This document shows, piece after piece, positions 1,461 to 52,188 of a stretch of 64,000 bases of DNA. The translations under genes were made by a program, and so were the position numbers. The notes below the pieces were generated by a model, which did not search any database, was not told where the DNA came from, and saw nothing but the letters and a program-made list of their open reading frames with translations. How positions within the stretch are numbered: position 1 is the first letter of the stretch; every line of letters begins with the position of its first letter. Source of the DNA: Mucilaginibacter straminoryzae (lineage in GTDB: Bacteria; Bacteroidota; Bacteroidia; Sphingobacteriales; Sphingobacteriaceae); contig NZ_JALJEJ010000002.1 of NCBI RefSeq assembly GCF_022953055.1, positions 744,001 through 808,000 on the forward strand, in the 5' to 3' direction.

Positions 1461-1573
1461 CCCTTCGACAAGCTCAGGGTGACAATCCGTTTGTTTATCA
1501 TTCTTTTATATCATTAACCTTTATATACCTGTTACTAAATCTCCTTTGTGTCATGCTGAGCTTGTCGAAGCAT
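1461..1573. repeat. Inverted pair of TGTCAT-type elements between murE and mraY
   Basis: 1461-1484 reads CCCTTCGACAAGCTCAGGG then TGACA, and 1549-1573 reads TGTCATGCTGAGCTTGTCG then AAGCA. They are near-perfect inverted copies about 65 bp apart and fill most of the murE-mraY gap. The unit recurs at 49639, 50474 and 50817. Confidence 0.8.
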
Positions 1574-36858: not shown

Positions 36859-36984
36859 GTCATTGCGAGGAACGAAGTAATTTGTGCCTCACCCCAACCC
36901 TCTCCTCCGGAGAAGGAGTTAAAGTCTCCCCTTTGGGGAGATTTAGAGGGGCTTACAGATTGCCGCGCTTCGCTCGCAATGACA
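36859..36984. repeat. Nested palindromic element between leuC and leuD
   Basis: Outer arms GTCATTGCGAGGAACGAAG and CTTCGCTCGCAATGAC; between them a double CCTC palindrome (about 36887-36953). The same nested design occurs three times at 50301-51130. Confidence 0.85.
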
Positions 36985-49638: not shown

Positions 49639-49667
49639 ATGTCATCCTGAGCTTGTCGAAGGATCTG
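49639..49667. repeat. TGTCATCCTGAG element
   Basis: ATGTCATCCTGAGCTTGTCG then AAGGAT; same unit as 50474 and 50817. It lies between the two terminator hairpins. Confidence 0.85.
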
Positions 49668-49740: not shown

Positions 49741-50286
49741 CTATTTTTTCCCTTTCAACCGGTAATACTTATAGATCTTCACCGCCGACATCAGGATCAT
49801 TGAAAAAGCAACAATGCCCAACACACCGAAGATCCAGTTAATGGCGCTTTTGAGTACCACCAGGAAAACAATAGCAAAAAGGAAAATAGTAGCTACTTCG
49901 TTCCAGATACGCAGCTGGGTGGAAGTCCACTTATAAACGCCGTTACGCATTTGCTTCATGATACGCTGACAGATGTAATGGTACACCACCAGTCCGAGCA
50001 CGAAAGTTAATTTAACGTGCATCCAGCCTTGTTTTAGCCAGGCGGGCATCAGAAAAAGCATCCAGATACCGAAGATCAGCGTCAAAAACATTGCAGGCGT
50101 AGAGATAATGTTCATCAGCTTGCGCTCCATGATCTCAAACTGATCCGACAGTACCTTTCGCTCCGTTTCCGGACGCTCCTGCGCTTCTACATGGTACACA
50201 AAAAGGCGCACAATATAGAACAGCCCCGCCATCCAACTAACGACGAAGATGATATGTAGTGCCTTTATGTAATTGTAGTATTCCAT
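49741..50286 (-). CDS. hemJ: Protoporphyrinogen oxidase HemJ-like membrane protein
   Basis: 181 residues from ATG 50286 with four or five membrane helices. It starts YNYIKALHIIFVVSWMAGLF (in part: KALHIIFVVSWMAGLFY), the HemJ pattern with conserved His in helix 1, and has WMHVKLTFVLGLVVYHY with further His. HemJ oxidises protoporphyrinogen IX using quinones and is thought to bind heme b. Last gene of the heme locus. The open frame runs upstream into a CCTC palindrome; that part is not counted. Confidence 0.9.
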   Translation of the reverse strand: MEYYNYIKALHIIFVVSWMAGLFYIVRLFVYHVEAQERPETERKVLSDQFEIMERKLMNIISTPAMFLTLIFGIWMLFLMPAWLKQGWMHVKLTFVLGLVVYHYICQRIMKQMRNGVYKWTSTQLRIWNEVATIFLFAIVFLVVLKSAINWIFGVLGIVAFSMILMSAVKIYKYYRLKGKK

Positions 50287-50300
50287 ATATTCTTTAATAG

Positions 50301-50430
50301 CATAGCGAGGAGCGTAACGAAGCAATCTTGACCTCTCCCCAGCCCTCTCCAAAGGAGAGGGAGTTTACAGCCTCCCCTTTGGGAGATTTAGAGGGGTTGA
50401 GATTGCCACGACACTTCGTGCCTCGCAATT
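50301..50430. repeat. Nested TCATTGCGAGG element, copy 1
   Basis: Outer arms GCGAGGAGCG...GAAGCAATCTTG and GAGATTGCC...CCTCGCAATT; centre holds a double CCTC palindrome. Its outer ends are slightly eroded. Confidence 0.8.
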
Positions 50431-50473
50431 AACATATTACTTATTTTGATGACCGTTTTAAGCTACGCCGAAA

Positions 50474-50502
50474 ATGTCATCCTGAGCTTGTCGAAGGATT
50501 GT
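50474..50502. repeat. TGTCATCCTGAG element in unit 1
   Basis: Identical core to 49639; followed at a fixed distance by the TGTCATTTCGAG element. Confidence 0.85.
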
Positions 50503-50547
50503 TTAATATCCCAATAATCCCTTTAACAAAAATCAATATTTTAAAGC

Positions 50548-50637
50548 TGTCATTTCGAGACGCCAACGGCGGAGAGAAATCTTCTTCACCCGACAAAGCC
50601 TAAAGAAGAAGATCTCTCACGTTCGTTCGAGATGACA
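50548..50637. repeat. TGTCATTTCGAG element, copy 1
   Basis: 90-bp imperfect palindrome with ends TGTCATTTCGAGACG and CGTTCGAGATGACA and inner arms GAAATCTTCTTC / GAAGAAGATCTC. Confidence 0.85.
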
Positions 50638-50648
50638 TAAAAACTGAA

Positions 50649-50776
50649 TGTCATTGCGAGGAGTGTAACGACGAAGCAATCTTGGCCTCTCCCCAGCCCT
50701 CTACAGAGGGGCGGGAGTTCTAAGCCCCATTGGTAGGGACTTAGATTGCCACGGCACTTTGTGTCTCGCAATGACA
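50649..50776. repeat. Nested TCATTGCGAGG element, copy 2
   Basis: Perfect outer ends TGTCATTGCGAGGAG and CTCGCAATGACA around a CCTC palindrome. Copy 3 starts 357 bp later. Confidence 0.85.
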
Positions 50777-50816
50777 ATATTACTTATTTTAATGACCGCT
50801 TTAAGCTATGCCGAAA

Positions 50817-50845
50817 ATGTCGTCCTGAGCTTGTCGAAGGATTGT
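50817..50845. repeat. TGTCATCCTGAG element in unit 2
   Basis: As in unit 1 with one change (TGTCGTCC). Confidence 0.85.
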
Positions 50846-50904
50846 TCAGTATGTTAATAATCCTTTTAACAAGATCAGGGTGCTAATAATCAATATTTCA
50901 AAAC

Positions 50905-50994
50905 TGTCATTTCGAGACGCCAACGGCGGAGAGAAATCTTCTTCATTTGACAAAGCACCGGGAAGAAGATCTCTCACGTTCGTTCGAGATGACA
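50905..50994. repeat. TGTCATTTCGAG element, copy 2
   Basis: 90 bp, ends identical to copy 1 (50548), centre diverged. Confidence 0.85.
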
Positions 50995-51005
50995 TAAAAA
51001 CTGAG

Positions 51006-51130
51006 TGTCATTGCGAGGAGTGTACCGACGAAGCAATCTTCTTACCTCCCTCCCCGCTCCAGAGGAGGGAGTTTAAAGTCCCATTTGTAGGGGCTAAGAT
51101 TGCCACAACACTTCGTGTCTCGCAATGACC
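51006..51130. repeat. Nested TCATTGCGAGG element, copy 3
   Basis: Same design as copy 2; third, partial tandem unit. Confidence 0.85.
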
Positions 51131-51139
51131 ATCCTATTG

Positions 51140-51163: not shown

Positions 51164-52188
51164 TAGTACCTGTATTCTTTTATCACCTCTACGGCGTACT
51201 TCACGTTATCAAACGGGATATCCGGCATAATACCGTGGCCAAGGTTAAAGATATAACCACTCTGGCCGCGCATGCTGTCAAACAAGCGATGGATACGCTC
51301 TTTGATCACCTTTTTATCTGCATACAAAATGTGCGGATCCAGGTTACCCTGTACCGCTATACCTTGCGGTAAACGTTTCTTCATATCGGCAAGATCAACG
51401 TTCCAGTCGATCGAAATTACATCCGGTTTAGCTTCGGCCATCAATGGCGCAAATACCGAACTTCCTTTACAGAAAGAAATCACCGGGATATCTGTACGAT
51501 TCAAATTGCTGATAATTTCAGCTATATAACGGTGCGAAAACTCTTTATAATCGTCCCACGCCAAAGCCTGCGCCCAGCTATCAAAAATCTGGACAGCATT
51601 CACGCCGGCTTCAATCTGCAGATTAAGGTATCCTGCGGTTACCTTTGCAATTTTAGCCAGTAATTGATGCGCTAGCTCTGGTTCGTTATGCAGCATTAAT
51701 TTGGTCAGCTTAAAATCGCGGGATGAACCACCTTCAACCAAATAGCTCATTACGGTAAATGGAGCACCTGCAAAACCGATTAGCGGGATTTTTCCATTTA
51801 AACGTTGTTGTATCACCTTTATCGCATCGGCAACATATTGCAATTTGTGAACCACGTCAGTATCTAAAGCATCCACATCTGCCTGGGTACGCACCGGATT
51901 GGCAAATTTAGGACCAACGCCCTGGGTAAAACTTAACTGACCGCCCATTGCTTCGCCTGTTACCAAGATGTCTGAGAACAAAATAGCTGCATCGATATCC
52001 AATAAGTCCACAGGCAGCATCGTCACATCAGCGGCAATTTCAGGGGTTTTGCACATTTCCAGAAAGGAATACTTATTCTTAATATCCCAATACTCTTTCA
52101 TAAAACGCCCCGCCTGGCGCATCATCCATACCGGCGGACGCTCTGTCTGTTCTGAAAATGCGGCTTTAGTAAATAATGAATCTTTCAT
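51163..52188 (-). CDS. hemE: Uroporphyrinogen decarboxylase
   Basis: Converts uroporphyrinogen III to coproporphyrinogen III. 341 residues with RPPVWMMRQAGR (about 17-28), FAGAPFTVMSYLVEG and NLGHGIMPDIP near the C-terminus. ATG at 52188. The 26-bp gap to the TPR gene holds a 5-bp hairpin (GGCTG/CAGCC) whose A/T-run touches the start codon; it is a weak possible attenuator. Confidence 0.97.
   Translation of the reverse strand: MKDSLFTKAAFSEQTERPPVWMMRQAGRFMKEYWDIKNKYSFLEMCKTPEIAADVTMLPVDLLDIDAAILFSDILVTGEAMGGQLSFTQGVGPKFANPVRTQADVDALDTDVVHKLQYVADAIKVIQQRLNGKIPLIGFAGAPFTVMSYLVEGGSSRDFKLTKLMLHNEPELAHQLLAKIAKVTAGYLNLQIEAGVNAVQIFDSWAQALAWDDYKEFSHRYIAEIISNLNRTDIPVISFCKGSSVFAPLMAEAKPDVISIDWNVDLADMKKRLPQGIAVQGNLDPHILYADKKVIKERIHRLFDSMRGQSGYIFNLGHGIMPDIPFDNVKYAVEVIKEYRY

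Follow-up and report, generated by a model that had tools for sequence, protein, structure and literature searches.

TGTC-tagged hairpin repeats in the hemE–hemJ gap of Mucilaginibacter straminoryzae and a probable GIY-YIG nuclease partner

The closest described relatives of the repeats considered here are the CGTC-tagged REPs, which are short intergenic hairpins with an unpaired CGTC (often TGTC) tag and a stem starting with AT, arranged as inverted dimers (Di Nocera et al. 2013, PMC3733652). That superfamily is described from Bacteroidetes among other phyla and includes Neisseria dRS3 and Rickettsia RPE-4 and RPE-6, and the account reports no association with transposase genes and no dedicated transposase (PMC3733652). 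The elements in the hemE–hemJ gap of M. straminoryzae resemble these REPs in their unpaired TGTC tag (one is TGTCGT), where CGTC REPs allow CGTC, TGTC, and CCTC, and in a stem that opens with complementary AT, the word ATNNY pairing with a partner that ends in AT (PMC3733652). In our data, CGTCAT variants adjoin GIY-YIG genes in other phyla. The four published families, CGTC-1 to CGTC-4, are given stems of 8–9 bp, loops of 4–5 nt, and mostly CCA-like tails (PMC3733652). The TGTC elements instead have covarying stems of ~5 bp that are often followed by CT, and loops of at least ~11 nt, and by stem, loop, and tail they fall outside all four families. They also differ from CGTC REPs as published in having a GIY-YIG gene as partner, and repeats that are known from several bacterial phyla, and that the published account leaves without a dedicated enzyme, are thereby offered a candidate for one (PMC3733652).

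The REP-RAYT systems (REPtrons) are similar in that a nuclease gene is flanked by cognate repeats and the repeat type is specific to the enzyme subclass, but they differ in fold (HUH-Y1, as opposed to GIY-YIG here) and in tag (GT[AG]G, as opposed to TGTC) (PMC6006769). By analogy, the present system would be a nuclease–repeat pairing akin to REP-RAYT in which the enzyme is of the GIY-YIG type. A 2025 report reportedly describes site-specific single-stranded GIY-YIG nucleases (Ssn) with NTS repeats in Neisseria, and is said to include a small GIY-YIG protein, hundreds of copies of its cognate repeat, and thousands of homologues with varied specificities. The likeness lies in the small GIY-YIG protein and the repeated cognate sequence near its gene; the report probably covers the same kind of system, to which our data may add the placement of the gene between arms, a match of word and clade inside a single genus, the exchange of palindromes at orthologous gaps, and tandem composites of mixed make-up. 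Among the papers listed in the literature searches, none linked GIY-YIG genes to these repeats.

The hemE–hemJ array and its hairpins

The window, by which we mean the whole 64,000-nucleotide stretch analysed, comes from a soil bacterium with a genome of 4.76 Mb (G000), and its array consists of two full units in the order B (TGTCATCCTGAG), C (TGTCATTTCGAG), A (TGTCATTGCGAG), with a decayed A copy in front (Table 1). Units are ~345–360 bp long with a direct-repeat spacing of 343–357 bp across 50317–51132, and units 1 and 2 are identical at 299 of 361 alignment columns (83%), with 18 gap positions, although Tandem Repeats Finder at its default score called no array at this gap. The original prediction of a tandem composite of about 355 bp built from three families is borne out by the direct repeats and the two units, but the order of elements is B-C-A. 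A palindrome nested inside another element had been predicted as well and was found, A enclosing a CCTCTCCCC palindrome; in unit 1 the A spacer is this second palindrome, CCTCTCCCC...GGGGCGGGAG. Ends of the form TGTCAT...ATGACA, proposed for all three families, hold for A and C but not for B, which is present as single arms that lack the ATGACA end, and further exceptions are the tag of the second B element, the tagless first A copy, and the end of the last A. The gap had also been said to interrupt the heme locus, but hemE and hemJ are both whole, co-directional neighbours.

Table 1. Repeat elements and neighbouring genes in the window
Feature	Position	Strand	Evidence
Decayed A element (TGCGAG family), no TGTC tag left, CCTCTCC-type palindrome nested	50303..50429	.	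Sequence and direct repeats
B element, unit 1, one arm TGTCATCCTGAGCTTGTCGAAGGAT	50475..50499	+	Sequence
C element, unit 1, inverted dimer TGTCATTTCGAG...TTCGAGATGACA	50548..50637	.	Repeats; fold -35.8 kcal/mol
A element, unit 1, inverted dimer TGTCATTGCGAG...CTCGCAATGACA, spacer with nested CCTCTCCCC palindrome	50649..50776	.	Repeats; fold -53.6 kcal/mol
B element, unit 2, one arm, variant tag TGTCGT	50818..50842	+	Sequence
C element, unit 2, inverted dimer	50905..50994	.	Repeats; fold -36.8 kcal/mol
A element, unit 2, inverted dimer, final tag ATGACC	51006..51130	.	Repeats; fold -51.5 kcal/mol
hemE, uroporphyrinogen decarboxylase, upstream of array	51166..52188	-	PF01208, E 5.5e-124
hemJ (UPF0093), downstream of array	49744..50286	-	PF03653, E 6.8e-48
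Further B element, past hemJ	49640..49666	+	
Further A element TGTCATTGCGAGCGAAGCGCGGCAATCT	36957..36984	-	
B-type element, altered stem word, TGTCATGCTGAG...CGAAGCAT, compensating change	1549..1573	+	

The gap is 879 bp long here, which we regard as an expansion because the median across 50 genus genomes (the 30 best hemE matches and 20 chosen large genomes) is 102.5 bp. The palindromes that occupy this short gap are unrelated from one species to another: in overlapping counts, 17 of the 50 gaps have TGTC elements, 20 have CCCCTAAGGGG-type palindromes, four have CACGAATT palindromes, and 11 have no searched motif. The B-C-A composite itself was not found in the other comparison DNA, which covers part of its own genome, the longest match being 48 bp.

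The repeat words exceed chance frequency in the genome, with 33 occurrences of TGTCATNNCGAG against two of the reversed pattern and 20 of TGTCATTGCGAG against none. Within the window the stem word is exchanged between GCT...AGC at 1549 and CCT...AGG at 49640. A second and different tandem composite lies at ~355 kb of C12 (L007 1329–1981) of the same genome, in the gap between two genes that we named aroA and aroC by eye from their translations; its spacing is 293–294 bp, its copies are 94% identical, and it mixes A, C, B-like, and GAGAGGGG elements. Separately, A dimers form a tandem array with 131 bp spacing at ~161.2–161.4 kb of C20 (L019–L023) in this genome.

A common design, the tag TGTC followed by a stem ATNNY and a covarying partner, runs through 473 distinct elements taken from the window and the genus and family DNA compared with it. 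For the seven commonest words, the exact reverse complement of an element's own 5' stem word is present in nt 15–46 in 74% of elements with TGC, 76% each with GCT and CCT, 84% with TTC, 88% each with TCT and ACT, and 48% with GGT, whereas the partner of a different stem word is found there in mostly 0–10%. In the B arm this takes the form TGTC-ATCCT-GAGC...AGGAT, which in the window is ATCCT, 11 nt, and AGGAT followed by TG or CT, and A and C arms pair as inverted dimers with predicted folds of -52 to -54 and -36 to -37 kcal/mol respectively. At the level of sequence the three families are one hairpin superfamily, and the idea that they have a single recognition signal is supported by the common tag, stem position, and covarying partner of the different words.

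Small GIY-YIG genes beside the repeats

A 105-codon frame in the genus genome G072 encodes a GIY-YIG nuclease and lies between an A dimer, one arm of which is decayed, and a further A arm; at the orthologous place in G072, G090, and G148 the GIY-YIG gene is likewise situated between a TGTCATTGCGAG dimer and another arm. The gene is found between facing arms with the same word at L278, L293, and L294 and with related words at L297, and, judged by eye, between facing arms at L264 of the M. straminoryzae genome. Among the 85 genus GIY-YIG loci that we used, which are the better-scoring matches listed, 69 carry TGTC elements no more than 500 bp away, 48 of them on both sides, and 16 have no repeat by pattern. 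Part of these loci are the next listed matches in order, minus four close to the end of a contig and two that repeat an adjacent match, and L316, L344, L346, and L355 were dropped for a cut flank. In two sets of listed loci the element is present within 500 bp at 23 of 29 and 46 of 56, compared with one of 29 and none of 56 for the reversed pattern, and the TGTC matches fall from 169 to 36 to eight in successive 250-bp bins outward from the gene. The nearest detected arms face the gene from either side at 29 of the 48 two-sided genus loci and at 34 of 59 two-sided others. As controls, neither of two longer GIY-YIG frames of the M. straminoryzae genome (468 aa, and 616 aa, the latter taken to be UvrC) has a TGTC element, and 9 of 30 hemE loci have one nearby, hemE adjoining a repeat-prone gap.

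In the DNA compared, the repeats cluster around GIY-YIG genes and without a link to RAYTs. The original prediction had allowed for some other small transposase, and the gene associated with the repeats is indeed small, although a transposase role for this nuclease is only putative. PF13366 genes (GxxExxY / PDDEXK_3) were tried as a partner in the same way and rejected, with a TGTC element at one of 30 loci. We observed that PF13366 loci (L439–L468, and G090 C1:93546–93809) have apparent AACCACAGAG...CTCTGTGGTT inverted-repeat flanks of their own, and that the 8-mer TAACCACA, picked post hoc, occurs close by at eight of 27 of these loci and farther away at none of 27; PF13366 genes and AACCACAGAG...CTCTGTGGTT repeats are perhaps another nuclease–hairpin pair.

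The word in the stem agrees with the clade of the nuclease. On a tree of 82 GIY-YIG proteins (86 were taken from 97 loci, each locus being labelled with its commonest word, and L325, with one TGTGAG and one TGCGAG, as NNTGAG) the word classes need 10 changes, compared with a mean of 43.4 for shuffled labels and with none of 200 shuffles as low. Clade A is matched with TGCGAG, clade B with GG/GC/CC/AC-TGAG, clade C with TTCGAR/CTCGAA, and clade D with TCTGAA/GCTGAA and related words, and the words of the window are those of clades A, B, and C. The M. straminoryzae genome has repeat-associated proteins of clade B (L260), A-like (L263), and clade D (L264 and L265), with three of its eight small GIY-YIG loci scoring by pattern against two of eight for the reversed pattern, and L264 added by eye. 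Its clade-A nuclease (L263) is accompanied by the words TTGCGAG and CGCGAA, which are not exactly those of the window, and the genome holds C elements while clade C is absent among the seven small proteins read from 10 PF01541 matches. A branch of 15 GIY-YIG proteins, including the MFTVYVLYSP type, has no TGTC element by pattern. Loci of this type without such elements are L275, L290, L304, L328, L336, L342, L346, and L358, the upstream reading frames are alike in several of them, and the clade may occupy one conserved place.

The number of A copies in a genus genome follows the clade-A nuclease, with a median of 47 in the 50 genomes that have it and 6.5 in the 70 that do not, and at least 10 copies are present in 48 of 50 and 33 of 70 respectively; seven genomes whose clade-A matches are all weak (E 1e-25 to 1e-29) are scored among the latter. 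In a rank regression on A copies, uncorrected for ancestry and with RAYT counts that take in weak and partial matches, the nuclease has a t value of 6.97, RAYT matches one of 1.93, and genome size one of 4.57. The suggested check of co-occurrence comes out for the nuclease, which A copies track better than they do RAYTs, with exceptions: eight of the 70 genomes without the clade-A nuclease have at least 60 A elements (337 in G076 and 330 in G115), and G051 has 44. High copy number without this nuclease needs loss, divergence, or another enzyme.

A scan of GTDB contigs with the clade A–D alignment extends the association to other phyla. The best 80 loci of a longer list include, by record title, Bacteroidota, Chloroflexi, Cyanobacteria, Clostridia, Acidobacteria, Alphaproteobacteria, Patescibacteria, Planctomycetota, and others, and within 600 bp a repeated 11-mer starts with TGTCAT at 43 of these 80, with CGTCAT at 18, and with either at 58, compared with 1.3 on average and eight at most for 60 permuted single tags; 22 of the 80 have no repeat by these patterns. 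The words of this wider set lean to TGCGA because the set was chosen by likeness to clade A.

Competing explanations

That the elements are REPs mobilised by a RAYT, a Y1 tyrosine transposase, was the mover put forward in the original prediction, and it has in its favour two RAYTs above the curated cut-off in the M. straminoryzae genome and a weak correlation between RAYT count and A copies (Spearman 0.31), the latter effect dropping to the regression value given above once nuclease and genome size are included. The two RAYTs (L031 and L032), however, are each surrounded by other repeats (CTTAGTCGTCACGCGATGCAATCGCGCG... and AGTCACTCGCGAGACGCGAGCGACT...), which differ by eye from the TGTCAT elements. 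A TGTC element is found within 500 bp at only one of 54 RAYT-model loci from family and genus, and at none on both sides, compared with four of 54 for the reversed pattern; these 54, from which four of 58 were left out (3300 bp or shorter) and some of which score below the curated cut-off, give one of 28 when the genus is taken alone. Presence across the genus says little by itself, with RAYT-model matches in 112 of 120 genomes (91 above cut-off) and TGTCATTGCGAG in 108. G121 lacks any RAYT match at E 1e-3 yet carries 25 A elements, and the window elements have TGTC and no GT[AG]G tag at the foot of the hairpin. We have rejected the RAYT partnership on the repeats at the two own RAYTs, the single locus of 54, and the RAYT-free G121, and consider RAYT mobilisation very unlikely.

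Were the elements classical MITEs, TGTCAT...ATGACA would mark the terminal inverted repeats of an element of DDE type, which duplicates its target site, and A and C elements do look like this in being inverted repeats with TGTCAT/ATGACA ends. But B elements exist as single arms, every arm has its own covarying hairpin, the gene between arms is GIY-YIG and not DDE, and no target duplication was seen, though the gaps compared include no clean empty site; we consider this explanation very unlikely. The hairpins could instead be host RNA signals for transcription or mRNA stability between co-directional genes, where GIY-YIG genes settle incidentally, and both the strength of the predicted hairpins and the several unrelated palindromes of the hemE–hemJ gap in 50 genomes would agree with this. 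It leaves unexplained, however, why TGTC flanks are found at GIY-YIG genes but not at RAYT or PF13366 genes of the same genus, and why the word matches the nuclease clade, so that we think it improbable as the primary account; a role in host RNA may be additional, as a later use.

A proposed nuclease–repeat model and turnover at gaps

We favor the model in which the three families are TGTC-tagged REP-like hairpins, and think it quite probable that each serves its own clade of small (~100 aa) GIY-YIG nucleases as cognate substrate. The enzyme partner that the repeats had lacked is probably this nuclease and not a REP transposase. The family assignment is based on PF01541 (E 9e-18) and on the conserved residues: the characteristic GIY-YIG set is Tyr, Tyr, Arg, His, and Glu, and across 26 homologues Y9, Y20, H34, and E67 are invariant and R30 nearly so. 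The predicted fold has a mean pLDDT of 94 and is nearest to 1zg2 (UPF0213; E 6e-4), with weaker matches to Slx1 chains (E 0.02–0.24, probability 0.96–1.00). This resemblance to UPF0213 and, more weakly, to the branched-DNA nuclease Slx1 would suit recognition of a hairpin or junction, although Slx1 is longer and works with Slx4.

The full unit is a pair of inverted arms, usually with only a short spacer between them; where the nuclease is carried, its gene is enclosed by two arms that face each other, or by a dimer on one side and another arm or dimer on the other. We infer that it is the nuclease that moves the repeats: it would read the tag and stem when the DNA is single-stranded or forms a cruciform and cut there, and repair or gene conversion would then bring a copy of the repeat, or of the nuclease cassette, into a different gap. 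Composites could arise by repeated landing in one gap followed by local tandem duplication, the hemE–hemJ array being such a landing spot where elements of three systems gathered before they were duplicated in tandem. In a transcript, the array elements would fold as strong hairpins between hemE and hemJ. A broader and more tentative proposal, to which we would give slightly less than even weight, is that GIY-YIG nucleases mobilise the whole TGTC/CGTC-tagged REP superfamily across bacteria, as selfish or domesticated nuclease–REP systems in which a few stem bases are a code read by the matching clade, and which spread by cutting hairpins in other intergenic gaps and by repair copying, one palindrome taking the place of another at a given gap. 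The link to small GIY-YIG genes and the visible code of clade and word open the origin and upkeep of the repeats to tests that use a 100-residue protein and short oligonucleotides. A further suggestion is that hairpin repeats belonging to several nuclease folds (HUH, GIY-YIG, and perhaps PD-(D/E)XK), each fold with its own, are rivals for the same intergenic gaps.

Turnover of the repeats is seen in the alignments of orthologous gaps. In the close trio G072, G090, and G148 (96–97% alike), one palindrome gives way to another at sharply defined edges: opposite TGTC dimers of G072, G090 has a CCTCTCC palindrome at one gap and a PF13366 gene at another, and opposite a TGTC dimer of G090, G072 has a gene with RAYT-like motifs. 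The last of these (L217 9175–9708, minus strand) encodes a 177-aa protein with HIHL and YIHNNP motifs, which we take to be RAYT-like, and which had no match in a Pfam search. Between G072 and G090, 11 of 19 elements anchored on both sides are kept at equal size and eight are replaced, resized, or missing, although two of the 11, with the words ATAATGAA and GTGATGAA, probably match by chance. A clean empty site was found neither among G161, G171, and G081, with hemE regions 89–91% alike, nor among G072, G090, and G148, where there were replacements and length changes only and no simple insertion. Read from the aligned gaps, the pattern in the latter trio looks like replacement more than plain insertion, which would fit repair after cutting. 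In a separate comparison, a TTCGAA dimer at ~119.7 kb of G161 C6 and its counterpart at ~133.5 kb of G171 C15 have their arm types swapped, as if the interior had been inverted.
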